Origin: a virus
Direction: 5' to 3' (one strand)
Length of the DNA: 64,000 nt
Virus record (IMG/VR): IMGVR_UViG_3300009151_000045
Location: 29,325-93,324 of that record
The notes under the pieces were generated by a model that saw only the letters and a program-made list of their open reading frames with translations, ran no database searches and was not told the origin of the DNA. The translations under genes were made by a program, and so were the position numbers. Positions 959 to 64,000 of this stretch are shown here, in pieces. How positions within the stretch are numbered: position 1 is the stretch's first letter; the number at the start of each line of letters is the position of its first letter.

Positions 959-3148
959 ATGACATACACAGTTTCATTTACTGACTCAACAAATCCTGCC
1001 AAACCTCCGATTACAGTTGCAGACGGTGCGCTAAACAATCAAACCAGTTTGTCACTGGTAGGTCAAAATTATTCAGGATATGGGCCTGTAATAGCAGGAA
1101 ACTTTTTACATCTGTTAGAAAATTTTGCCAGTGGTATTGCTCCTATCAATCCTGTTCAAGGACAATTATGGTACGACACCAATGTAAATTCCAACATACT
1201 TAGAGTATACAACGGAACTCAATGGATAGAAGCAGGAGCACTGAAAAAAGCCACAGCAGCCAATCAACCTAGTGTTTCGGCCAGTGTAGCAGGAGACCTA
1301 TGGGTCGACACTACCAACAGTCAACTTTATCTATTTTCAGGTGCAAGCTGGTTATTGGTTGGTCCCACATACAGTGCAGGATTGCAAACAGGTCCAATAG
1401 TAGAGTCTATAGTTGATACTTCGAACATAAGCCACCCAGTTATTTCGATGTATGTAACTAGTACAACAGACAATATATCTTATCGACTTGCAATAATAAG
1501 CAAAGACGCATTTACTCCCAAGTCTAGCATCATCGGATATCAAACAATCAAAGAAGGTGTAAACTTATATTCAAACAGTTTAACCAAAGATTCCGCCACT
1601 ATCTGGGGAACTGCTGACGTGGCCAACAATTTACTGGTTGGTTCCAGCACAGTGCCAGCGGCAAATTTTTTAAGATCGGATGTAACCAGCACTTCAAACA
1701 GTGTTCTAAATATTAGAAATGCAGGCGGCTTGAGTATAGGAAATGATCTCAGTTTCAATATTTCACAAGGCCCAACGGCCTTTACGCTATTTTCTAAAAA
1801 TACCACAAGCAGTATTGAATTCAGTGTAAACGGAAGTACGCTGTTACATTTAGATCCATCTGGATATGTGGGCGTGGGTGCAGGAAATACATCCCCTGCC
1901 ACCGCTCTCAGCGTAGCAGGAGTTGTAACTTCGGGTATAGCAGGTGCACCTGGCGGACTGATAGTGACTGATGGAGCAAGTCCTATACCAACTACAGTGT
2001 TAACTGTCAGCACTACCGGTGGAATCACCACGTCTCTGAACATGACCTCTACAGGCAATTTGTCAGTGGGCGGTGTAGTCACAGTTGGATCTGGATCAGC
2101 TGGCGGCGCAGTAATATTACCGGCACCTTCAGTTTCGGTTCCGCTATTTGATATAGGTTCGGCCAGTCAGCCTTTTAGAAACATATATGCCAACACATTT
2201 ACCGGCAGTTTTACCGGAACATTCGTTGGCTCAGTAACAGGTAATGCCAGCGGCACCGCTACCGCACTACAAAATCCTACACAATTTTCCATTACTGGCG
2301 ACGTAATTACCACTGCTCCAATCAATTTTACTGGAAATTCAGGACCAGCTACATTAACTACCTTGGTCAGCAACACAATGATTTCGGGAAAGACGGCAGC
2401 TACCGGAGCCAGTGCAACAGATCAAATGTTGGTATTGCAAACAAATGCCAACACTTCAAATCTAGTCAGCATGACAAGACAGACTTTTCTATCCGGGGTA
2501 GGCATTTTTGCAATACCGGCTGGAGTTATGATGCCGTTTGCTGGCCCAGTGTCTGCAATTCCTGTGGGATGGTTGTTATGTGATGGCAGTGAGATCAGCA
2601 CAGCTACATACAATCAATTGTTTTTAGCGATAGGGTTTGTGTACAAGGCACAAATAAATCTATCGGGCGTAAACACGTTTGCTCTTCCGGATATGAGGGG
2701 TCGCATGCCGTTGGGATTAACCAACATGAACAACTATGGAAACATTCCTGGATTTACTCAAGCTGTCAACAGTAGTGGACAAACGGTTAATACAGGCGGC
2801 CAGCGCGGCACAGTGACAGGAGTGATAACACAAAGTGCAAATCAAACTCCAGCATCTATACTAGGAGCGGTTGGTGGATCCGACGGAACAGTACTATCAG
2901 TTGGCCAGATTCCCCAGCACAAACATAAACTAAGTACTACCAATGCTCAATACTATGCTCCGGGTGTAAATGGAGGATCTCCAGACACTAATGCTTCTCA
3001 AGGATACAGCATACCGCCAGGCGGAACAGGTTACGGATTGACCAATACCGGAGATATGACAACTGGTGGTGCCGGTGATAGTGTAAACTTGATAAATCCT
3101 TTTATGGCAGTTAACTATATAATCTTTACTGGTGCAGGACTAAGCTAA
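959..3148 (+). CDS. Tail fibre protein with C-terminal tail-collar domain
   Basis: This 729-residue fibre has an N-terminal module of about 130 residues (LVGQNYSGYG ... LLENFASG ... GQLWYDT ... NGTQW) shared with the next two genes. A long beta-rich Ser/Thr/Gly shaft follows. The C-terminal part carries a phage tail-collar domain: MMPFAGPVSAIPVGWLLCDG at about 520, then LPDMRGRMPLG, then the QIPQHKHKL stretch and a hydrophobic end. In this family the collar domain makes trimeric receptor-binding tips, and HxH residues near the tip can bind iron. The gene ends in TAATG, sharing bases with the next start, so the two are translationally coupled. Confidence 0.85.
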   Translation: MTYTVSFTDSTNPAKPPITVADGALNNQTSLSLVGQNYSGYGPVIAGNFLHLLENFASGIAPINPVQGQLWYDTNVNSNILRVYNGTQWIEAGALKKATAANQPSVSASVAGDLWVDTTNSQLYLFSGASWLLVGPTYSAGLQTGPIVESIVDTSNISHPVISMYVTSTTDNISYRLAIISKDAFTPKSSIIGYQTIKEGVNLYSNSLTKDSATIWGTADVANNLLVGSSTVPAANFLRSDVTSTSNSVLNIRNAGGLSIGNDLSFNISQGPTAFTLFSKNTTSSIEFSVNGSTLLHLDPSGYVGVGAGNTSPATALSVAGVVTSGIAGAPGGLIVTDGASPIPTTVLTVSTTGGITTSLNMTSTGNLSVGGVVTVGSGSAGGAVILPAPSVSVPLFDIGSASQPFRNIYANTFTGSFTGTFVGSVTGNASGTATALQNPTQFSITGDVITTAPINFTGNSGPATLTTLVSNTMISGKTAATGASATDQMLVLQTNANTSNLVSMTRQTFLSGVGIFAIPAGVMMPFAGPVSAIPVGWLLCDGSEISTATYNQLFLAIGFVYKAQINLSGVNTFALPDMRGRMPLGLTNMNNYGNIPGFTQAVNSSGQTVNTGGQRGTVTGVITQSANQTPASILGAVGGSDGTVLSVGQIPQHKHKLSTTNAQYYAPGVNGGSPDTNASQGYSIPPGGTGYGLTNTGDMTTGGAGDSVNLINPFMAVNYIIFTGAGLS

Positions 3149-4488
3149 TGACATATTCAATTCTTTTAACCAATGGTACTACACTAGTACCCGGTGGCTT
3201 GGCCAATGCTACTATCAATCAAACCACTACCGATTTGACCTTGATCGGACAAAACACCTCGGGCTACGGCACATATATCAATCAGAATTTTGTTAAATTA
3301 TTAGAAAATTTTGCCAATACAAGTCAGCCAAATCATCCTCTCAAGGGACAGTTGTGGTATGATACTAGTCAAAATTTGTTACAAATTTATAATGGCAATC
3401 AATTTACTCCAACTGGAAATACTATCGTAGCTGATTCAGCCCCCAGCGGACTGACCACAGGAGGATTATGGATCAATAGTAAAACCAGTCAACTGTACTT
3501 TAACGATGGCACACAAACTACCCTAGCCGGACCAGCTTACACAAGACAGCAGGGACTATCTGGATTTATTGTCAGTTCAGTGCTTGACACATTGAATGTC
3601 AGCCATACCATTGTGTCTCTTTATGTTGCCAATACACTGATGGGTATTTTTGCCAAGGAATCATTCGTTCCAGCATCAGCCATTACAGGTTTTACTGATA
3701 CAGTTACAATCAACGCCTACCAAACACGTACAATATTAACAGTAGAATCTGCCTCGGCTAATACATTGATAGTAGGTCAAACAATAACTGGTGACGGAGT
3801 ATTACCAAATACAATTATCACCAGCTTGACAGTCAATGGTGTGACAGCTAACGGCGGCGTGGGGCAATACCTAGTAAGTACCAATGCCATAGTAACCTCT
3901 ACAACTATGACCGCAGTGTATGGTACTTTGCAAATCGGGTTTAATGTCAGCACTTATGGAGGCATCAAATTCAATGTTCCAGTAAGTCAAGCCAACTATT
4001 TGTTATCGCCCACTGACGGTTCTTTGAAGAACGCTAATAGTTTTTTATCAACTACGTCGGCCTCTCAGACTACTGGCACAATCTCTATAGCTAATTCGGC
4101 AGTTGATAGTGTTGGGTCGACACCACAATTGGTGCTAGGCCAATCGGGATATACACAAATTAACACTACTTACAGTGCATTTGAAATAAAAAGTAAGATA
4201 GCTAATCAGGATTTTCAAGTCACTTTAAACCCTGCCAATAATGCTACCCAAGCATTTTATATCAACGGCACTGTTTTACGAGTTGGAATCAACGGATTTA
4301 ATGCCAGTAATCTGCCGCAGGCCACACTGGATGTCAACGGTTCCTTTAGAGTCGCTCCGGGCAATGTTCCACTGCACTATAATTCAACGGGTGTGCAAGG
4401 ACAAATTGCATGGGATTCAGGATTTATCTATGTTTGTATTGCAACAAATACCTGGGCTCGAGCACCGCTTACAAGCGTTTCTTGGTAA
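3148..4488 (+). CDS. Tail fibre protein, paralogue of the neighbouring fibres
   Basis: This 446-residue protein shares the N-terminal module of the genes at 959 and 4536 (LIGQNTSGYGTYINQNFVKL, then LLENFAN and GQLWYDT). That module probably anchors each fibre to the same baseplate or collar site. The middle is beta-rich and the C-terminus (about 400-446) ends in a short domain without a collar motif. Its start codon overlaps the stop of the previous gene. A different tip on the same anchor suggests a second receptor specificity or a spacer fibre. The C-terminal function is not recognisable. Confidence 0.75.
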   Translation: MTYSILLTNGTTLVPGGLANATINQTTTDLTLIGQNTSGYGTYINQNFVKLLENFANTSQPNHPLKGQLWYDTSQNLLQIYNGNQFTPTGNTIVADSAPSGLTTGGLWINSKTSQLYFNDGTQTTLAGPAYTRQQGLSGFIVSSVLDTLNVSHTIVSLYVANTLMGIFAKESFVPASAITGFTDTVTINAYQTRTILTVESASANTLIVGQTITGDGVLPNTIITSLTVNGVTANGGVGQYLVSTNAIVTSTTMTAVYGTLQIGFNVSTYGGIKFNVPVSQANYLLSPTDGSLKNANSFLSTTSASQTTGTISIANSAVDSVGSTPQLVLGQSGYTQINTTYSAFEIKSKIANQDFQVTLNPANNATQAFYINGTVLRVGINGFNASNLPQATLDVNGSFRVAPGNVPLHYNSTGVQGQIAWDSGFIYVCIATNTWARAPLTSVSW

Positions 4489-4501
4489 CAGCTTAAAATA
4501 T

Positions 4502-4509
4502 GATAAATA
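4502..4509 (+). promoter_or_regulatory. T4-type late promoter (GATAAATA)
   Basis: GATAAATA fits the NATAAATA late promoter of T4-like phages and lies 26 nt before the ATG of the fibre gene at 4536, the same spacing seen at other late genes here. Confidence 0.6.
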
Positions 4510-4535
4510 CACTGAAATAAGGATGAGCGACTACC

Positions 4536-6011
4536 ATGTCATATACAATTAATCATTATAACGGCACTTTGTTGGCTACTGTAGCAGATGGCACAGTTGA
4601 TACAAGTACTAATCTTACGCTAGTAGGCAAAAACTATGCCGGCTATGGTCAAGCGCAAAACGACAATTTTGTCTGGTTGTTAGAAAATTTTGCCAATACT
4701 TCAAGTCCAGCAAATCCACTAGCTGGACAAATTTGGTTTGACAGCGGTAACAAGAAATTAAAATTTTGGGACGGAGCAAAATTCCGTATTGCTAGCGGAG
4801 CAGAAACTGGAACCACGGCACCTTCCGGACTAACGCTGGGCGATTTTTGGTTCAACACTCAGAGCAATCAGTTGTATGCATGGACTGGCACTACCTTTAC
4901 TTTAATTGGACCTCAACAAGTGGTAGGTGCTGGGACAACTCAGATGCAATCTGTTAGTGTACTTGATGTTAATAATGTAAGTCATGCTATTATACAAGGT
5001 GTTGTTAACGGCCAAACAGTTTTTACTATTGCAGGAAGTGATGCACCATTCAACTTAAACTCTACTACAAATCCAATTACAGGATTTGATACAATACAGC
5101 AAGGGTTAACCTTGCAGTATACTATCAACGCCAATAACGGTGTAACATCGGGCAGTCAACGGTTCTGGGGAACGGCAACCAATGCAGAAAAACTAGGCGG
5201 TCATAGTATTAGCGAGTTCGTGCTGAATACAGGAACCCCGCAGTTTACCTCTCTAGTTAATTTTAGCGATACAGGATTTACAATAGGTAGTCCTATTTCC
5301 AAGCTGGCTATATATAATGCAGGCCAAACGACTCCTACCATACAAAATATTAATGGCACTACAATACAATTTCAAACACTGGTCAACGGATCGACAGTAA
5401 CTCCGTTGATATTGAATGGTAATAGTGCTACTCCTGGAAATACAATAGCTAATTTAGGATCAGCACAGTTACCGTGGGCCAACGTGTACGGTACTTATCA
5501 TTGGGGTACAGCCCAGCAGGCTGATGCTCTAAACGTAAACAATGTGTATGTAACCGCAAGCACATCATCCACTCCCGGAACAATCGTAGCTAGAGATAGC
5601 AGTTCAAATATTTACGCTAATTTGTTCAACGGTACTGCAACTTCAGCACAGTATGCTGACTTGGCAGAAAAATATTTGCCAGATGCTGAATATCCAACAG
5701 GTACAGTTGTAAGTGTTGGTGGTGATCAGGAAATAACTGCTGCCACAGATGGTGATAGAGCTATTGGTGTAATTTCTGCTAATCCAGCATATATGATGAA
5801 CAGCGATCTTGAAGGCGGTGTTTATGTTGCATTGAAAGGACGAGTTCCGGTATTTGTAGTAGGTCCAATTAGCAAAGGTCAGTATTTGATATCTTGCGGA
5901 ACTGGTATGGCCACCGCGGCAAATGACAGTTCAACTCCTGGAATTTTTGCTGTTAGTTTAGAAAACAGTAATCATGACGGAGTCAAACTTGTAGAATGTG
6001 TGATTCTGTAA
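4536..6011 (+). CDS. Tail fibre protein with conserved C-terminal domain
   Basis: This 491-residue protein is the third fibre with the shared N-terminal module (LVGKNYAGYGQ, LLENFANT, GQIWFDS). The last 120 or so residues (from about YADLAEKYLPDAEYPTGTVV to the end) form a separate compact domain. Similar domains occur at the ends of many T4-like cyanophage fibres, where they may act as a trimerisation or self-cleaving cap; that role is inferred. A late promoter lies 26 nt upstream and a GGATG ribosome-binding region precedes the ATG. Confidence 0.75.
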   Translation: MSYTINHYNGTLLATVADGTVDTSTNLTLVGKNYAGYGQAQNDNFVWLLENFANTSSPANPLAGQIWFDSGNKKLKFWDGAKFRIASGAETGTTAPSGLTLGDFWFNTQSNQLYAWTGTTFTLIGPQQVVGAGTTQMQSVSVLDVNNVSHAIIQGVVNGQTVFTIAGSDAPFNLNSTTNPITGFDTIQQGLTLQYTINANNGVTSGSQRFWGTATNAEKLGGHSISEFVLNTGTPQFTSLVNFSDTGFTIGSPISKLAIYNAGQTTPTIQNINGTTIQFQTLVNGSTVTPLILNGNSATPGNTIANLGSAQLPWANVYGTYHWGTAQQADALNVNNVYVTASTSSTPGTIVARDSSSNIYANLFNGTATSAQYADLAEKYLPDAEYPTGTVVSVGGDQEITAATDGDRAIGVISANPAYMMNSDLEGGVYVALKGRVPVFVVGPISKGQYLISCGTGMATAANDSSTPGIFAVSLENSNHDGVKLVECVIL

Positions 6012-43289: not shown

Positions 43290-43705
43290 TATACACCGTA
43301 TCTATTCTTTTTCTTTTGGGCCACAATGCTAGTAGTATTTGTTTCTTTTGGCTCTTGGCTACCTTTTTTAGTAATAGCTTTCAATTTAACACCCAGTGCT
43401 TTGGCACTGTGATTGATCATATCAGTGTCTACTTCGGTAAATTGCGTTAGAACCATTTCGTTAGAGGCATAGCCTTGATGCTCTGATTGATTGTGCGGAC
43501 TGCCGGCCATGTGTACACCCAAACGATACATGTCATAGTAGTGACCAGGCCAATCTGGTATTGATACCATACCGGGTATAGCGGCTTCGTGGTGATCGTG
43601 TATTTTATTGCGTTTGCCGTTGTGAACATGTCCGGGGTGAGTACCGCTTCCGTCTGTTACACCGCCGTCATCCTCTTTGAGTATTATAAATTCTTTTGCT
43701 CGCAT
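43289..43705 (-). CDS. Late protein with capsid-targeting-like N-terminus, paralogue of a C-terminal domain next door
   Basis: This 138-residue protein starts MRAKEFIILKEDDGG and ends SQEPKETNTTSIVAQKKKNR plus YGV. Both ends are copied in the last 130 residues of the 1105-residue protein upstream (MRAKEFLAELST ... SQEPKDTNKTS ... NRYGV). The middle is His-rich (HPGHVHNGKRNKIHDHHEA) and could bind metal. The N-terminus resembles a T4 internal-protein signal. Function unknown. Confidence 0.55.
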   Translation of the reverse strand: MRAKEFIILKEDDGGVTDGSGTHPGHVHNGKRNKIHDHHEAAIPGMVSIPDWPGHYYDMYRLGVHMAGSPHNQSEHQGYASNEMVLTQFTEVDTDMINHSAKALGVKLKAITKKGSQEPKETNTTSIVAQKKKNRYGV

Positions 43706-46700
43706 TATACACCATACCTATTGCGCTTGGGCTTGTTTACAGGACTAGTTTTATTCGTATCCTTGGGTTCTTGACTCTTGCCGCGTTTATCTAATTCTCC
43801 AGCATCACTTGGAATCGTAGCAAGAGCTTGGTACATCATCATCTGCTCTTCATCTGTGTATGGAAAAGCCACATTGTATTTTTCAACAAAACTACTGGCC
43901 GGCATATCTACAGCTTTTTTGCTCTTGCCATCGGCCATAGCAGCCGCCATCATAATACGATTTAGATGATATGTGCGATCATACCCGCCCACATCTCGCA
44001 TCAAAACGCCACCGCCCTGCCCAGCATCAACTGCATGGTCGTGACGGTTATCGGTAGGCTTTGTACTTAATTCTGCTAAAAACTCTTTTGCTCGCATTTT
44101 TCTAATCCAGCTGTTGGCTTCTTTTATATTTAGCGGATCTGCAGGCGGCTGTTCTTGTTTGTCGTGTAGTCCCATACCTTGTCTGGTTAGATTCATCAAG
44201 TGCTCAATCCATTCTTTACCTAATTTTGCCTCATCAAATCCGTGTTTCCAAATTTGATATTGTTGTTCGGGAGTACCTGATTTCAATGCGTTTCTTAAAT
44301 TACTAAAACTTATACCAGTTCCCCCTGCAGCCTCGTCACGCTCTGTGATATACGGAGTTACTTTCACATGTTCATAGCCTTGGAATTTATTAACAGCCTT
44401 CATCAGGGCCGCAGCCATATTTGTTGCCATTTTAGCGCGATCTTTGCCCACTGCGATAACAATATTATCATAACGCGGGGATTTTCCTGGCAAAGGATTA
44501 ATTAGTTCATGTTTGATTTTTTGTATTAATGCACCACCCTGTATCACTGTACCTATGTTGTTTGCATATTCTGGATACAGTTTATGCCATGTTTGTACTT
44601 TTACTGCTGGGGGAATAGGATCATCTTTGCCTTCAGCATTGCCAATAAACAAATAAGGATCCCCTCCCAATGATTTAGCCAAGGTAACAGTGTGATTCCA
44701 TAATTGTTCATGCCCTTTATGCCCAACAAAACTGCCAACAGCAACTACCGCAGTTTTGACATTGCCTCTCGGACGTTCTGTACGAGCGCTGGCCTTGGCA
44801 GCATTTTTACCTGCAATGACTGCACGTTGCTCAGCACTGGTAACTTTGATAGGGCCTAATCTGCTGTTGATAACTATACCTTCGTAGTCTTGCCCTAATA
44901 GGTCTTTGCCTAAAATGTTGGGATCGTTAATGATAGCCTTTTCTAATTCCAATGCAATCGGCTGTAGAATTTCTTTGGCTTCACGTTTTAGTGCCAGTTT
45001 GCCGCTGGACAGCATCGCTTTGATCTGTTCAATGTTTTCCATCGGCGGAACAATAGCAGTAACATCCAATGCTTGGCTTTGTGTTAAACTGTTGTTAATA
45101 AACATCACACTGCCTTGTTGTCCAAGCCCTGTTAATTTCTTAACCACTTGGTTGCTATCGGGCAGTGCTTCCCCGGTTGATGCATCGCTGACATGGAAAG
45201 GAACAAGCGCCAGCTGTATACCGTCTGGCAATCGATCATATTCGATACCTACAAATCTCAATTTACCTTCTGGAGTTTCTGTAGCAAATGGCAGAAATAA
45301 TACTTCGCAGGTCACTTGCTTGTTGACTAAAAAATCTTGCCCTAATTTACTGTCAACTAGCTCAACTGCTTTCATCATTTCGTTAAACAAATCATCAAAC
45401 ATTTTTGCACGGCCCAGTATGTCCGTATCTTGTGTGCCTTTTTCTTGATGATACTTTAAGAATGTTGCTTCATAGCGCGGAGGAGTTCGACTAGTACCCA
45501 TAAAAGGTTTGCCATCTGAATTTTTACCAAATCGACCACCGAAGCCGTCTACTTTTACATTCAATGGAATATTTTGCAATTTAAAGTTTCCGTTGCCGTC
45601 GTGAATCTCATCTAGGAGATCTAACAAATCCATTGGTTTTAAATCACGAAGATGTGGCATGCCTTTACGCAGTTGTGCCTGTACTTCTGCTTCGTTCAAC
45701 TGTTGCCCACCGTGCCAATCTGGCCAAGTACCATTGGCTACAGCAATCTTTCTTTCACGACCATACTGTATCTTTTTACCTGCTTGATCTGGTCTAGGTT
45801 TATATTGGCGTTTAAAGTTTTCTAAGTCTAAATAATCTCCCTCGTATTCTCTAGCCATTTCAACAGCCATGGGCCTTAGATTTGTTAGTTTTAGTTTTTC
45901 TAACATCTGATCAATAGCGGCGAATTTGATATCCCCATCAGCCTTAGGATCGTCGCGTTCGATCATTTGACTACCGGGCTCGAAACATATTTCAAAGAAA
46001 CGTTGCATGGTTTCTTGTTTTTGTCTTTCAGTTAGGTATTTGCCTACTAGATCAACAGTGCCTAAAAAAGTCCATTGTAGTTTGCTATCTTCCGGAGTAG
46101 GCTCGTGACCAAATAGTTTTGCAAACTGACTTTGCAAATTTTGATCGTATGGTCTATCTTTAACTTCAACAGGCTTTACTACCGGCAGTTCCTCTTTGGA
46201 ATTATCTGGATGCGGCAAATGTCGTTGTTCACCAGTCTTTTCATCGTTAACTGGCCCATATGGCTCACTTAGTCCGCCGCCTTGTTTACCCGATACACCG
46301 AATGAATATTTTTGAACCCAGTCCGGAGCTACAACGTCGACCTTGTTCTTGCCTCTTCCGGTACCAGTTTGCACTTGAGCATGTATTTTTATAGCACCAG
46401 CTAGGGCTCTATAGAGATATTTGTGGAACACACCTTTGATACCAGCTGTCAAGTCACTCCACTCTGAGCTGTGACTAAATCTAAACCAATCAGTGGGTTT
46501 ACCATCTTGGTACTCGCCGAACTCAAAATCTATCTGTATTTTTATTGGAGGATTACTAAACTGAAATAGACCATTATACTGTTCGTTACCACTACCAAAC
46601 CCTAAAAATACAGTATCACCAATTTGTTTATTTGTGTGGCTTGTTAAGAAATCTCTAACTTGCGGTTCTAAATCTCTATCTACTTGTGTATCAATATCAC

Positions 46701-47022
46701 CGACCTTGGGTTTATACTGTGTAAATTCCTCATCACTAACACCTTCTGTATTAAAAAAGTGTAAACTGCTACCACTTAGGAATTCTCTGCTGGTCAATAA
46801 GTCAGGTTCCCATAAGTTCTTTCTTGTCTGTTTATGAAATGCTAGATTGATATCGTGCAGTAACTTATTTAAAAGTCCAACCATAAAGGTGCGGTTATGC
46901 ACTTTTAAATCTATCTTGTCAGCATAATGTACTGGTTCGCCTTTCTCAGCATCTCCGATACTTAGGTTACCACCTTCGATAATAATTCGTCTGGGACTGA
47001 TAAACAGCTCGCGTAGTAGCAT
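43705..47022 (-). CDS. Large late protein with three predicted nucleotidyl-transfer domains
   Basis: This 1105-residue protein starts MLLRELFISPRRIIIEGG, a targeting-like N-terminus. Three enzyme-like regions follow. About 105-170: VGDIDTQVD and IQIDFEFGE give the three acidic residues of a pol-beta-type nucleotidyltransferase. About 488-728: NVKVDG, CEVLF, EGIVI and PIKV match ligase motifs I (KxDG), III, IV and V. About 755-915: GHKGH and ISFSNLR match the HxGH and ISxSxLR signatures of cytidylyl/NMN-adenylyltransferases. The tail repeats the neighbouring 138-residue protein. Known relatives in T4-like phages are unnamed. Confidence 0.6.
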   Translation of the reverse strand: MLLRELFISPRRIIIEGGNLSIGDAEKGEPVHYADKIDLKVHNRTFMVGLLNKLLHDINLAFHKQTRKNLWEPDLLTSREFLSGSSLHFFNTEGVSDEEFTQYKPKVGDIDTQVDRDLEPQVRDFLTSHTNKQIGDTVFLGFGSGNEQYNGLFQFSNPPIKIQIDFEFGEYQDGKPTDWFRFSHSSEWSDLTAGIKGVFHKYLYRALAGAIKIHAQVQTGTGRGKNKVDVVAPDWVQKYSFGVSGKQGGGLSEPYGPVNDEKTGEQRHLPHPDNSKEELPVVKPVEVKDRPYDQNLQSQFAKLFGHEPTPEDSKLQWTFLGTVDLVGKYLTERQKQETMQRFFEICFEPGSQMIERDDPKADGDIKFAAIDQMLEKLKLTNLRPMAVEMAREYEGDYLDLENFKRQYKPRPDQAGKKIQYGRERKIAVANGTWPDWHGGQQLNEAEVQAQLRKGMPHLRDLKPMDLLDLLDEIHDGNGNFKLQNIPLNVKVDGFGGRFGKNSDGKPFMGTSRTPPRYEATFLKYHQEKGTQDTDILGRAKMFDDLFNEMMKAVELVDSKLGQDFLVNKQVTCEVLFLPFATETPEGKLRFVGIEYDRLPDGIQLALVPFHVSDASTGEALPDSNQVVKKLTGLGQQGSVMFINNSLTQSQALDVTAIVPPMENIEQIKAMLSSGKLALKREAKEILQPIALELEKAIINDPNILGKDLLGQDYEGIVINSRLGPIKVTSAEQRAVIAGKNAAKASARTERPRGNVKTAVVAVGSFVGHKGHEQLWNHTVTLAKSLGGDPYLFIGNAEGKDDPIPPAVKVQTWHKLYPEYANNIGTVIQGGALIQKIKHELINPLPGKSPRYDNIVIAVGKDRAKMATNMAAALMKAVNKFQGYEHVKVTPYITERDEAAGGTGISFSNLRNALKSGTPEQQYQIWKHGFDEAKLGKEWIEHLMNLTRQGMGLHDKQEQPPADPLNIKEANSWIRKMRAKEFLAELSTKPTDNRHDHAVDAGQGGGVLMRDVGGYDRTYHLNRIMMAAAMADGKSKKAVDMPASSFVEKYNVAFPYTDEEQMMMYQALATIPSDAGELDKRGKSQEPKDTNKTSPVNKPKRNRYGV

Positions 47023-57833: not shown

Positions 57834-58343
57834 TTATCTCAGGAATTCCTGCCAGTCTAAATTATATTTGACCGAATCTATCTGATGCACACCCAATAAA
57901 AACAGCACAAAGCTGGCCACACTGCTTCCGCGTCCTACTCCCCATACAATACCATTTTCGTTGCAGGTATCTACAAAGTGTTTGGTCCATTGTAGTAATG
58001 GAATCATGCCTCGCTCGTTGTATGCCGCCATTTCTGCGGTAACGCGAGCAATTTGCTCTGGAGTAGTGCATCGAAGCAAACACCAATCTTCTACATCAAA
58101 ATCTTTGTATTCCTGCGGCATGAACCAATCACTTTGCAGTGCGGAATCAAAGTCTTCAATAGTGATAGTGTCTAATTGTTCGTTGAATTTTTGAAAGGTA
58201 AATCCAGCAACATGTTCTAATTGTTCAATATCTTCGGTGTAGTCTACTGTGATATCTTTAAGATTGGAAATTTTTCCTTGGTAAAGGAATTTGAATATAT
58301 CTTGTGAATTGAAAATGGGATTACTGAATTTGTCTAGGCGCAT
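57834..58343 (-). CDS. Stand-alone protein resembling part of DNA polymerase III alpha
   Basis: The last 55 residues of this 169-residue protein (WTKHFVDTCNENGIVWGVGR, GSSVASFVLFLLGVHQIDSV, KYNLDWQEFLR) match the segment of bacterial DnaE that reads GVGRGSxxxS...ALxIxxIDPLKYNLLFERFL. The protein ends just before the point where DnaE places its catalytic Asp residues. The first 110 residues are unmatched. The function may be DNA or primer binding; it cannot polymerise alone. Confidence 0.6.
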   Translation of the reverse strand: MRLDKFSNPIFNSQDIFKFLYQGKISNLKDITVDYTEDIEQLEHVAGFTFQKFNEQLDTITIEDFDSALQSDWFMPQEYKDFDVEDWCLLRCTTPEQIARVTAEMAAYNERGMIPLLQWTKHFVDTCNENGIVWGVGRGSSVASFVLFLLGVHQIDSVKYNLDWQEFLR

Positions 58344-58586: not shown

Positions 58587-60166
58587 CAGTATTGACCCAT
58601 GTATCTTAGATTAACAGTGGTACCTGCGTTTGTAGTAAAGGCATAGATTACTTTGGTCTTGCTTGCTGTACCGCTGGTCAGTGTTGTAATAGCAGATGCA
58701 ACAGTACCTGGATTAGCACCTGTGATAGTAACTGACGGTGGAGTAGAAGTATACCCAATACCTGGACTTGTAATAGTCAATGCACCAATTCCGCAACTGA
58801 GCACAGCTCTTGCTCCGCTACCTGTACCGGTAATAGTTTGTATTTGATAAAGTGCCGCAGATAAAGGATTAGTAAACGTACCACATGGTGTGCCAGTAAA
58901 CGTACCAATTGGGCCTGTAGTGCTGGTGTATGTGACTGTTATAGTTTGAGTAACAGCACCTGTAGCATTTAGGTTAACACCACCGCTATCTCCCATTACT
59001 ATAGAAAATATTCCGGCACCTATTGTACCAATACTCTTTATTTGAGCCCCAACCGGTATCGTAGTTCCACTAAGTGGCATGCCAATTGATAGCAGACTAA
59101 AATAGCTAGCAGGAATATTGCCAATGTTTGGTTGACCTCCTACTATTTGACCTGGGAATGTAGTAGATAGTGTGGCCACTTGCAAGTATGTGTTGGGATA
59201 ACCAACAACACTGACAAGGTCACCGACAGCGTATCCGCTGCCAGCTATGCCACCCTGTATGGTGCCACCTGATGCATAATTTGCAGTTGCAGGACAAGTA
59301 ACAGTGACACTGGTTTGTGTACGACCAGTAATGACCCATACACCGTTATATGCCGACGGGGTAACTCCTGTAACCAAAATACTTTGTGTGTTTACAAAAG
59401 GTATAACATTATTAGTCCCGCTATACTGACTGGTAAACGTAAATGTAGTACTAGTTCCACTTCCGGCATTGTTAGTTATACCTGTTATTGTTATAGGCGT
59501 AGGTGCCAAGTTGGCCACACTGGCAGATACAACTGTGTAGCTAGGAGTAGCTGAAGGAGTGACAGCACCTGTTTGTGGACTGCCCCCACTGAATCCCACT
59601 ACCACTGCACTGGTATATCCAGTCCCGGTCCCGGTAACAGAAACAGATGCTACACTTTCGCCACCCACACTCAATGGTGATGGAAACGAAGTATCATATT
59701 TTATTGAGCCGTTTGTGGTAGCAAATGTAGGAGTCCATACTCCGTTGGTGTCGCTAGTAATAAGAATGATGGCATCTGAAAACACGCTGGTTGCGTTGTA
59801 TGCAGGCCAATTGGTAAATGTCAATGTAGCATTACCAGCCAAGGTGAATTTTTGTACAGCACCGATAGATAGGTCAATATTGGTTGCCGATGCAACTCCA
59901 CTGGCGCTGTATAACGATCCTGAAAATTGTTGGTAAAGCCCGTTACTGAGTGTACTGCCCAGTAGGTTGTTAACCACAGGTAATGTCTGCGTGGCTAGGT
60001 CAGCTTTGAGTATCGTGGACGATTGTAAGGCCGATATCTCGCTGGCCGCAGTGGTAAAATCAGCTACGATGGCAGCAAAATTACTACGAAAGCCTTGACT
60101 ATCGTTGTCTTGCCCTGCTACAGGGAAAGTGGTTGAAATTGTTGAGGGGTTTATTGCACTTGTCAT
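58586..60166 (-). CDS. Putative tail/virion protein with beta-rich repeats
   Basis: This 526-residue protein begins TSAINPSTISTTFPVAGQDN and SQGFRSNFAAIVADFTTAAS, a short N-terminal module seen in T4-like phage tail proteins. The rest is Gly/Thr/Val-rich, with repeated TITGTG-, YTSAVVVGFSG- and GYTSTPPSVTITGA-type units, which look like stacked beta domains. A GATAAATA late promoter lies 30 nt upstream. It overlaps the peroxidase-fusion gene by 4 nt. Confidence 0.65.
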   Translation of the reverse strand: MTSAINPSTISTTFPVAGQDNDSQGFRSNFAAIVADFTTAASEISALQSSTILKADLATQTLPVVNNLLGSTLSNGLYQQFSGSLYSASGVASATNIDLSIGAVQKFTLAGNATLTFTNWPAYNATSVFSDAIILITSDTNGVWTPTFATTNGSIKYDTSFPSPLSVGGESVASVSVTGTGTGYTSAVVVGFSGGSPQTGAVTPSATPSYTVVSASVANLAPTPITITGITNNAGSGTSTTFTFTSQYSGTNNVIPFVNTQSILVTGVTPSAYNGVWVITGRTQTSVTVTCPATANYASGGTIQGGIAGSGYAVGDLVSVVGYPNTYLQVATLSTTFPGQIVGGQPNIGNIPASYFSLLSIGMPLSGTTIPVGAQIKSIGTIGAGIFSIVMGDSGGVNLNATGAVTQTITVTYTSTTGPIGTFTGTPCGTFTNPLSAALYQIQTITGTGSGARAVLSCGIGALTITSPGIGYTSTPPSVTITGANPGTVASAITTLTSGTASKTKVIYAFTTNAGTTVNLRYMGQY

Positions 60167-63100
60167 ACTGTTATCCTATCGTCTCTGAATACAAGATATT
60201 TATCGCTTGTGTAACCGGTGACAGCAGAGATCGTGAATCTGTCTACGGTGTAGTCTATAGTGTTGAAATCAAATCCACTATGCTTGATATTAAGGGCTAT
60301 GCCGGCACTAGTTCCTGGTTTACAGAAGCAAATTGGCACACAAAGTACATATCCCGGCTGTGCTTTAGATCCTTTAGGGATACTGCGCATCCAAAGCGGC
60401 AAGTAATTGCGCTCGGTTAATCCAACAGTACCTATACGTTTTTGCCAATTAGTGATACTGTTGTTGTAATAGGTGTTTGTGTTCGGGTTGCTGACTTCAT
60501 AACCTGTACTGTCCACGGTTATCTCATAAGCAGGTCGCACATTCGAAGGTGCGCTAGCAGTCAAGTCGCTAAGATTAGTTGACCATATGCTGTTGCTATC
60601 ATCCACTGTGATGGTTTGCGGTGCTGAACTACCTGTATTGAATGAAGCAGAGGGATGCAGGTTGTCTGGCTCAGACGGATCAAGCATCTGTATATACACC
60701 ACTTCGTACACATTGCTATTGGAGTTGGGATCAACTGCAATAGCTGTTTTAACACTGCCGAATTTGAATCTTTTTCTCTTTACTCCTAGCCCTATTGCAC
60801 CAACATAAGCTGCCGCTGATTCTGTTTGGATACCAGCATATACTAACATCTTTAGATTGGGTTGTAAGCCAAATGATGGATCGTTAGTTCTATAGATACT
60901 GTTGGGAGTGAATATGGCTGTGTTATTTACAAATGCCTTCCATGCATTGCGTTGTGTTGGTGCCAAGAATGGTTGAGTGTACACGTTGCTGTATGGAACT
61001 GTATTTGGTGTAGTTACAGATATGGTAAATGTTTTTGGCAGTGCGCTGTATTGATAGGAGTCACTGGCAGTTACAGTAAATTGGAATGATCGGTTAAAAG
61101 TAGTCAGATTCTTGTCAAAGGTAGTGTCACTGTTATTGAAGGTGGTCAATCCCAGCAAACCTGTAGTGCCATTATAGTATTGATTCGGAGTGCCAATAAT
61201 CTCGCCATCGGAGGTCAACTGTAAACCAGGTGGCAAACTTCCACTAGTTATTGTGTACAACACTGTAGTGTTGATCACATTACTACTGGCAGATATACTC
61301 AAGGTAGATGGATAAGCCGCCGGTATAGAACCGATATTGGAAGGTGTATTCCAAGTTATCTGGCTAGTGACACTGCCTAGTATCAAAATGTTAAAGGTTT
61401 TAAAACTGATTACAGTTTCTGTACTTAGTAATGATGCTGAAGATCTAACAGCAGTCACAGTAAAGGTATACGATGTTGTGATAGCTGGAGTATAGGGCAC
61501 ACGACCAAAAATTTCACCAGTGTTGACATCGAAACTGGTTCCCAGTGGCAGTTTGGTCAACGACCCTATGTAAAATACACTAAGGTCCGGTGGTGCTAGA
61601 TCTAATGGACGATTGAGAGTTAATCTGTACGATCCAGATCCTAAACTGGCTACTTTGGATATTTGATATAGAGTTTCCGTAGCACCTGCTATGTAGTTGT
61701 TAAATGTAAAATATTGTCCCACTAGTGGAGTGCCGCTGGCATTGATTATGCTGAGAGTGGTACCGCCATAGATAATGATAGTAGAAGCTATGGAAGATAT
61801 GGTACAATTATTAGACAGTGTTACAGTATATGCATTAGATGTGAATACTACACCCGAAGGTGTACCGGCAACGGTGACAACAGCACTGCCATCGCGTTTT
61901 GTGGACAAGGTAAATTGAGTAAATCCGTTGGTAGCAATGACATAGTATACCGATGATGTGGTTGCATTGGTATAGTTTGAAATCATTTGTGGTATAGAAA
62001 ATTGTCCCGATACAGTGATTCGTTGTCCCACATACAGTTGTTGGCTAGTATAAGCGCAAGAAAATGTTCCTCTAACTCCAGTGATCACAACAGAGGCTAA
62101 TGTTAAATCACTGCTCACACTGTTGATCAAAGTTCCTGGTGGAATACCGTCTGATTGGACACTTTGCCCTACCTGATACACATTGGCATTATTGACATCA
62201 GTTATGATATTGCTACCTGCTGTGATATTGCCGCGTATGCTCAGTGACTGTATATTGTCAGTCAACGCTATTCTTTTGGTTTGGGCATAAACTTCACAAT
62301 TGGTGGTTTCTAAACGGAATATCACGTCCTTGCGGTCATACAGTAGAACAGGAACAGTTAGATAGTTATTGGCTCTGAATGTACCAAGATTAGACTTTGA
62401 CAGCCAAACTGGGTTTCTGAGAAAACTAGAGTCTGCAGTAAATGCACCCGCGAACCCGTCAGTGCTGGTTGAGTCAGCTCGAAACTGATCAGTTCCCAGT
62501 ACAAATATCTTAAAGATACGTTGAGCACTGGTTACTCCGTCTGATACTGTAACTTTAAATTGATAGTTTTGATTAAGAGTGCTAGGTACACGCACATTAG
62601 AACTGTAGTCCCACGTTACATCATCGTACTGATAACTGTCAAAACCGTCCGTAGGAACAACAGCAAAGTCGTAGCCGGCATTATCAAAATAGGTATCATC
62701 AAATGCACCACTTCCGTCTGATACTGAGATCACAGTTTGTGGATTAGGTAGTACATAACCACTGATCAACCCGTCATCACTTAGTGTAAGTCCCGGAGGA
62801 AGATTACCATCACCACTTGCTATAAAGTATTTTAAATGAGCACCTAATACAGTATTTAGATCAAATGCTTCTATCTGATAAGCAACAAAGTTGCTGTCTA
62901 AGGTGTATAACTGTTGATGAACTCCTACTGGTAAATTACCTGCGGGAGTTAAAAATACAGGAGCATTGGCTCCGTTTATCTGCATGGTAAACGTACGATC
63001 AGCAAATCCTGAGCCGTTTGTTGCAACACTGGTGATATTTTTTGTGATGTTTACGGCGAATGTACCGTCACCGTTGGGCGATACTATGTAAGTTCCTACA

Positions 63101-64000
63101 GGAATGCCAGGTCCAGACAAGACCATTCCTTGCAAAAATGTGCCAGTGGTAGTTCCGCCTGGTATAAATTTGCCAGCATTGAATCTGGCGGCAGTTGACT
63201 TGGCAGTACTGCTGGCTCTAATGCAGAAATTGTAAGTGGGCGTTCCTTGTGTGACAAATGGACTTCCAATGATTGTACTACCTTGCAATATCAATCCAGG
63301 CGGTAATGATCCACTAACCACCGTAAATGTTATTCCAGCAGTATCGGACAATGGAGGAGGACTAGTGCTAGGTGATCGAGCAACTATGCTTGGAACAGCG
63401 CCTGAAATAAGGTCTGCACGTTCTACTGCTACAAATGCATCAGTCTGCATGTGTACTGTATCAGTATTACGTAAAATTATATCAGATAAAGTAGTGTTAT
63501 TAATCCAGGTTAAATCTGTTGGATTCCATGGTTGATTTTGATACCAAGATTGATCGCCATCTCGTAATCGACTCATTTGATCTGCTATGATGGCACGGAA
63601 TGTTGGACCTACCATTGCTCCTGGATAGCGATCCTCTGCAAGACCGCCAACCCATAAATCTATGTCATTAATATTAACATAAGCTGAATGTAATGCATTG
63701 GCTGTAGTTGCATCGCTAGTAATTTGACTAAAGCTAGTATATGCTGAAAACCCTAATGCTACACGCATTTGATTTAAACTTGGAAGGCCTAAATCACGCC
63801 CACGTTGTATGTTTGTTGCGGCAAGATCTAACGCTGCCGGAGGATCGTTAAGCAAGTTACGTAAGTCTTCAATAATGTATACATCTAATTTGTTAGATAT
63901 ATCGCTGGCTAATTTTCTTAAGAATCCGTTTGCGCCACCGTTGCGTTCATACTGTGCAGGTGTTAAGAAAAACGCTTGTCCTAAAGTTAAAGATTCTGTA
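60163..64000 (-). CDS. Tail/adhesin protein with animal-type haem peroxidase domain (partial)
   Basis: The frame is open to base 64000, so the true start is outside; a TTG at 63855 is internal. At least 1278 residues are seen. The first visible 130 (FLTPAQYERNGGANGFLRKL, VYIIEDLRNLLNDPP, AATNIQRGRDLGLPSLNQMR, DIDLWVGGLAEDRYPGAMVG, MSRLRDGDQSWYQ) closely match the C-terminal half of the animal/bacterial peroxidase domain. One conserved His is Leu (RGRDLG). Then come several putative-Ig repeats (SGSLPPGLxL) and a phage structural C-terminus. Heme residues upstream cannot be checked. Confidence 0.85.
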   Translation of the reverse strand, partial: TESLTLGQAFFLTPAQYERNGGANGFLRKLASDISNKLDVYIIEDLRNLLNDPPAALDLAATNIQRGRDLGLPSLNQMRVALGFSAYTSFSQITSDATTANALHSAYVNINDIDLWVGGLAEDRYPGAMVGPTFRAIIADQMSRLRDGDQSWYQNQPWNPTDLTWINNTTLSDIILRNTDTVHMQTDAFVAVERADLISGAVPSIVARSPSTSPPPLSDTAGITFTVVSGSLPPGLILQGSTIIGSPFVTQGTPTYNFCIRASSTAKSTAARFNAGKFIPGGTTTGTFLQGMVLSGPGIPVGTYIVSPNGDGTFAVNITKNITSVATNGSGFADRTFTMQINGANAPVFLTPAGNLPVGVHQQLYTLDSNFVAYQIEAFDLNTVLGAHLKYFIASGDGNLPPGLTLSDDGLISGYVLPNPQTVISVSDGSGAFDDTYFDNAGYDFAVVPTDGFDSYQYDDVTWDYSSNVRVPSTLNQNYQFKVTVSDGVTSAQRIFKIFVLGTDQFRADSTSTDGFAGAFTADSSFLRNPVWLSKSNLGTFRANNYLTVPVLLYDRKDVIFRLETTNCEVYAQTKRIALTDNIQSLSIRGNITAGSNIITDVNNANVYQVGQSVQSDGIPPGTLINSVSSDLTLASVVITGVRGTFSCAYTSQQLYVGQRITVSGQFSIPQMISNYTNATTSSVYYVIATNGFTQFTLSTKRDGSAVVTVAGTPSGVVFTSNAYTVTLSNNCTISSIASTIIIYGGTTLSIINASGTPLVGQYFTFNNYIAGATETLYQISKVASLGSGSYRLTLNRPLDLAPPDLSVFYIGSLTKLPLGTSFDVNTGEIFGRVPYTPAITTSYTFTVTAVRSSASLLSTETVISFKTFNILILGSVTSQITWNTPSNIGSIPAAYPSTLSISASSNVINTTVLYTITSGSLPPGLQLTSDGEIIGTPNQYYNGTTGLLGLTTFNNSDTTFDKNLTTFNRSFQFTVTASDSYQYSALPKTFTISVTTPNTVPYSNVYTQPFLAPTQRNAWKAFVNNTAIFTPNSIYRTNDPSFGLQPNLKMLVYAGIQTESAAAYVGAIGLGVKRKRFKFGSVKTAIAVDPNSNSNVYEVVYIQMLDPSEPDNLHPSASFNTGSSAPQTITVDDSNSIWSTNLSDLTASAPSNVRPAYEITVDSTGYEVSNPNTNTYYNNSITNWQKRIGTVGLTERNYLPLWMRSIPKGSKAQPGYVLCVPICFCKPGTSAGIALNIKHSGFDFNTIDYTVDRFTISAVTGYTSDKYLVFRDDRITV
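60197..60204 (-). promoter_or_regulatory. T4-type late promoter (GATAAATA)
   Basis: GATAAATA on the minus strand lies inside the last codons of the peroxidase-fusion gene, 30 nt before the ATG at 60166. Confidence 0.55.

Follow-up and report, generated by a model that had tools for sequence, protein, structure and literature searches.

A viral contig carries, at its very end, a gene in which an animal-type haem peroxidase is joined in frame to a carrier protein of immunoglobulin-like (Ig) repeats, and a comparison with its relatives makes it very probable that this fused peroxidase is an exchangeable module. The window, that is, the whole stretch of 64,000 bases analyzed, corresponds to bases 29,325 to 93,324 of a 93,324-base IMG/VR contig, base 64000 being the physical end of the record. 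Because the window ends where the contig ends, the fusion gene is cut at base 64000 and no start codon is visible. Its N-terminal half is absent from the record, from which absence from the gene itself does not follow. The features used below are as follows.

60163 to 63999, reverse strand: gene of the carrier-peroxidase fusion, of which 1278 codons can be seen; the contig end truncates it on the 5' side, and its stop codon occupies 60165-60163.
63433 to 63993, reverse strand: what the window shows of the animal-type haem peroxidase domain, its C-terminal part (PF03098 profile 337-530); relatives have the full domain.
63811 to 63813, reverse strand: Asn codon of NIQRGRD, partner of the proximal His and the equivalent of N421 in myeloperoxidase (MPO).
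63302 to 64000, reverse strand: window part of the exchangeable module, 98.3% DNA identity to locus L003 over 699 b and beyond it 76-81% or no match in most pieces.
63184 to 63366, reverse strand: the He_PIG (putative Ig) domain that comes first behind the peroxidase, with further He_PIG stretches downstream.
60166 to 61155, reverse strand: conserved 330-residue C-terminal carrier domain, common to more than 550 viral loci and gp329 of phage Atu_ph07.
58586 to 60166, reverse strand: next gene, 526 residues, with structural-type repeats, its start overlapping the stop of the fusion gene by 4 bases.
959 to 6011, forward strand: as context, tail-collar and tail-fibre-like genes in another part of the window.

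The frame from 63999 to 60163 runs to its stop without a break, its 5' end being open. Residues 3-189 of the translated frame match PF03098 up to the end of the 530-position profile (E = 2e-49), and four stretches match PF05345, the He_PIG family (E = 1.3e-7). Together with the motifs ATNIQRGRDLG, NDIDLWVGGLAE and LRDGDQSWY, the peroxidase match is, as a sequence match, far beyond chance, which bears out the sequence-only reading of a peroxidase signature followed in the same frame by putative-Ig repeats and a structural-type C-terminus. The 526-residue next gene gave no Pfam family at cut-off and no PHROG match. Also, a short ORF at 57834-58343 (reverse strand) resembles the PHP/N-terminal end of the DNA polymerase III-type PHROG_11127, and its homologue in locus L008 likewise lies downstream of the fusion gene. 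Farther away, a protein of 1105 residues at 43705-47022 (reverse strand), with no Pfam family at E 1e-4, matches phrog_19290 (unknown function) and, elsewhere along its length, a cytidyltransferase PHROG.

The whole protein can be read in relatives of the window gene. A scan of viral contigs gave 19 related loci at first and was extended later; the in-frame fusion of peroxidase and carrier is present in about 30 contigs, at least 10 contigs read through it completely, and the whole genes encode about 1,350-1,640 residues. For example, L008 (P0002) starts with a 33-residue head, MSLNIWTQRSGYSLGSFPEQVSVNLPLPLIP, followed by the complete peroxidase (PF03098 profile 3-530 of 530, E = 3.2e-114, 382.9 bits against a curated cut-off of 25), a linker, He_PIG repeats (E = 1.9e-20) and the conserved C-terminus. 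A sequence search of the PDB recovers 8s6c (E = 1.5e-82) and peroxinectin A (1e-63), and no INPHARED phage record matches the peroxidase domain. The window contig and several others end at the same codon because the module is nearly identical in otherwise diverged genomes; the idea that the breaks stem from a second copy of the gene within one genome is unsupported, since each genome record has a single PF03098 match and no more than one carrier. Moreover, locus L020, at the end of a contig of 265,680 bases, breaks off after the first 40 codons of the stretch that opens the window gene, with identical residues there, as would be expected of the two sides of one assembly break.

The peroxidase domain of these proteins is predicted with high confidence by AlphaFold (pLDDT 91.4), and Foldseek places it closest to the Cyanobacterium TDX16 peroxidase (PDB code: 8s6c, TM 0.87), with peroxinectin A, MPO and LPO ranking next. 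When predicted viral proteins are searched for this fold, the matches with a name are giant-virus enzymes, and a third match is short and unnamed. The domain belongs to the peroxidase-cyclooxygenase superfamily and is a relative of MPO, an enzyme of human immunity. The signature of the superfamily comprises Gln and His in GQxxDHD, Arg and Glu in RxxE, and a proximal His paired with an Asn, families 4 and 7 being exempted from the GQxxDHD motif (PMC4420034). All of these (distal Gln and His, catalytic Arg, ester Glu, proximal His and partner Asn) are invariant in 14 phage sequences. The codon of the NIQR Asn lies inside the window itself; the remaining residues of catalysis and haem ligation fall past the window edge and are kept in the full-length relatives. 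The Ca-site Thr/Asp/Ser-or-Thr is also kept in the phage copies, active-site and Ca-site residues being assigned by MPO numbering. However, the first Asp of GQxxDHD, which forms a haem ester bond and is present in 31 of 31 cellular rows, is replaced by Thr in all 14 phage copies. This suggests that the chemistry of the phage enzymes may differ from that of MPO and LPO.

The sequence-only reading had raised the replacement of the usual His of RGRDHG by Leu as a possible sign of inactivity. This position is Leu or Ala in the phages, and because the bacterial sister clade has Leu too, the substitution says nothing on activity; nor is the residue a haem ligand. Moreover, dN/dS among the phage copies lies at 0.07-0.24, with close pairs in agreement although dS is near saturation in many comparisons. 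This is the pattern of a coding sequence under purifying selection, and with the complete active site it disfavors the suggestion of an inactive binding module. The phage peroxidases have 0-1 cysteines, which suits folding in the cytoplasm. On these grounds, we infer an active enzyme with altered haem attachment and consider its catalytic competence probable, with good confidence.

The carrier is far more widespread than the peroxidase. Its C-terminus is found in 558 confirmed viral loci, mostly without peroxidase, and in most of the 80 carriers that were read, the head is joined straight to the first He_PIG repeat. Such peroxidase-free carriers (L026, L031, L278 and most loci) have the same head, He_PIG repeats and C-terminus, with flanks up to 99% identical. 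L004, which has the peroxidase, and L278, which does not, are 98.9% identical along 5,159 b on the upstream side and 99.3% identical along 9,513 b on the downstream side; between these flanks, they differ by a segment of 1,768 against 166 b. This segment covers the start of the gene; therefore, the head and the first Ig edge have been swapped together with the peroxidase. In a second pair with and without the module (L030 and L031), identity is 97.9% over 9.4 kb and 91.7% over the first 120 b. Also, a DNA identity of 95.1% between L008 and L003 is confined to residues 34-579, their protein identity being 97% inside the module versus 48-68% in the rest of the carrier, and the window gene shows the boundary with L003 listed above. 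Finally, on a tree of 135 carrier C-termini, the presence of the peroxidase requires at least 12 changes, at least nine of them forced by well-supported branches. These genome comparisons establish, at the level of sequence, that the peroxidase has been exchanged between phages as a unit.

At the position of the peroxidase, the enzyme-free carriers examined hold only small inserts, and Pfam detects no other enzyme there in ten unusually long carriers, nor in L249 and L214. An insert of about 60 residues (VGTTDFTKIGA..GTIFTAT), the only one in some peroxidase-free carriers, lies inside the head, near the site of the module, in L070, L082, L084-L086, L105, L256, L261, L273, L276 and L280. In L101 (5033-8029), a different long N-terminal region precedes the He_PIG repeats, with a weak match to CBM_5_12 (E = 0.005, below the cut-off).

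Regarding where the protein sits, the only isolated relative of the carrier C-terminus in INPHARED is gp329 of the jumbo phage Atu_ph07, with about 24-26% identity and E = 3e-9 over 290 residues in this one isolate. This protein combines a Peptidase_S8 (subtilisin-type) domain, He_PIG repeats and the homologous C-terminus; thus, the likeness resides in the shared C-terminal domain and repeats behind an N-terminal enzyme, whereas the enzyme is a peptidase instead of a peroxidase and no MxLNIWT head is seen. From their sequences, the carrier looks like a platform for different enzymes. The virion proteins of Atu_ph07 identified by ESI-MS/MS cluster at CDS 284-329 (PMC6102473), and the gp329 gene, which adjoins a tail-fibre gene, is the last of this cluster. 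Because of this position, a virion location of the fusion protein is likely by analogy, and we hold it with fair assurance. In L008, long genes of structural type precede the fusion gene, and the one closest to it encodes an Mtd_N (tropism determinant) domain. Together with the tail-collar and tail-fibre-like genes of the window, this context and the gp329 parallel support the assignment as a tail or adhesin protein made in the sequence-only reading, short of proof. A predicted model of the C-terminal carrier domain was too poor for a structure search (pLDDT 56).

The 16 phage peroxidase domains form one clade (SH-aLRT 100) beside 18 cellular sequences. These come mainly from Rhizobiales and Acetobacteraceae, but some Synechococcus MAGs and a single MAG bearing the label Mycobacterium are among them; the best identity between phage and cellular copies is about 51-54%. 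These cellular relatives were found by an alignment-based scan of genome contigs, a single-sequence scan having found none. The DNA polymerase of the window is closest to those of Sinorhizobium phage Phosso (50%) and Agrobacterium phage Atu_ph07 (45%). Both lines of sequence comparison point to an alphaproteobacterial host, and the window would best be explained as coming from a large phage of the T4 superfamily, a relative of Atu_ph07 and Phosso. Other viral haem peroxidases occur at 13 loci: 12 are distant (25-28%), and those inspected have leader-like N-termini and are probably host DNA, whereas one is a stand-alone gene in another phage (L285:5974-7422, IMGVR_UViG_3300000651_000012). The latter encodes 482 residues with a normal GQFLDHD, 51% identical to the bacterial L109, flanked by a phage-like DNA polymerase III alpha and Thy1 on one side and a SNF2-type helicase on the other; apparently, it is an independent acquisition.

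Based on these data, we moderately favor a virion-displayed oxidizing enzyme that acts at adsorption, on a surface protein of the tail-fibre cluster. The peroxidase would fold in the host cytoplasm, where its few cysteines would require no disulfides, and take up host haem and Ca2+, and the Ig-repeat and C-terminal carrier would build it into the particle. Once outside, the haem would reduce H2O2 supplied by respiration, photochemistry or neighboring cells, and the enzyme would oxidize a substrate close by, which could be a halide or thiocyanate, a phenolic or tyrosyl group, or Mn(II). With the adhesin holding the enzyme at the host surface, the oxidation could modify or open the envelope or matrix during adsorption, as an oxidative counterpart of hydrolytic depolymerase tail spikes, and the module would be gained or lost by recombination at its edges, as expected for a host- or habitat-dependent trait. 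That surface modification is the purpose of the module has about even standing in our judgment; haem loading, activity and substrate, as well as the benefit to the phage, are what we infer.

Other roles are compatible with part of the data. In a protective role, the particle-borne peroxidase would clear H2O2 or organic peroxides from the surroundings of the adsorbing virion or of a cell just infected; it would use the same catalytic residues, and the patchy presence of the module could track peroxide-rich habitats. As free-standing scavengers of peroxide, however, enzymes of this superfamily do poorly beside catalases, and an enzyme that is secreted or stays inside the cell should give better protection than the few copies on an adhesin. 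Protection appears unlikely, also because oxidizing a second substrate is what these enzymes mostly do (PMC4420034). Exchange at the N-terminal side of an adhesin resembles receptor-module swapping, and with the ester Asp replaced by Thr, the fold could mainly bind a surface ligand, as in peroxinectin-like cell adhesion, catalysis being incidental or lost. This is doubtful, since all the other catalytic and haem-ligand residues are invariant in the 14 phage copies and binding alone needs none of them. The oxidation of Mn or another metal, depositing an oxide coat on particle or host or generating Mn(III), could be proposed because the alphaproteobacterial MopA haem peroxidases belong to the same Pfam family (PMC6247904) and the nearest cellular relatives here are alphaproteobacterial; nonetheless, the likeness to MopA is at the Pfam-family level only and no Mn-specific feature was identified, making it improbable. 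Lastly, a host peroxidase joined to a phage gene by misassembly, as could be suspected from a contig that ends inside the domain and from several contigs breaking at the same codon, is rejected as next to impossible, since many contigs hold the full-length fusion in frame, no cellular sequence was found closer than the identities given above, and a shared break point is expected from a near-identical module in diverged genomes.

Among known systems, the following come closest to the proposed virion-displayed oxidizing enzyme. The bacterial secreted members of the peroxidase-cyclooxygenase superfamily (TDX16 8s6c and those of Bradyrhizobium, Methylobacterium and Acetobacteraceae) have the same domain, fold and catalytic residues, whereas the phage copies are fused to an Ig-repeat carrier, have Thr for the first ester Asp and form their own clade. 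The giant-virus haem peroxidase of Orpheovirus (A0A2I2L5A1) has the same fold (TM 0.77) but comes from a eukaryotic virus, with 23% identity and 596 residues. Depolymerase tail spikes and other virion enzymes likewise place an enzyme on an adsorption protein and are swapped as modules, although these enzymes are hydrolases, lyases, esterases and peptidases, against a predicted haem oxidoreductase in the present case. We know of no oxidoreductase among them, and our literature searches found neither an oxidoreductase on a phage adsorption protein nor a published phage PF03098 protein; a mention of heme peroxidase in an estuary-virus paper proved to be a reference on KatG. Adsorption proteins that carry an enzyme are thus familiar in phages, and to our knowledge an oxidoreductase in that place is not described in the literature searched.

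A haem redox enzyme as an exchangeable adsorption module, by which the virion attacks the cell surface oxidatively rather than hydrolytically, is a reading we regard as evenly poised. If the particle is oxidizing, infection would depend on environmental peroxide and on halides or metals, and phage entry would be linked to photochemistry and respiration. Moreover, phages 99% identical with and without the module offer a ready natural experiment on its use, and the carrier platform can be mined for more enzymes.
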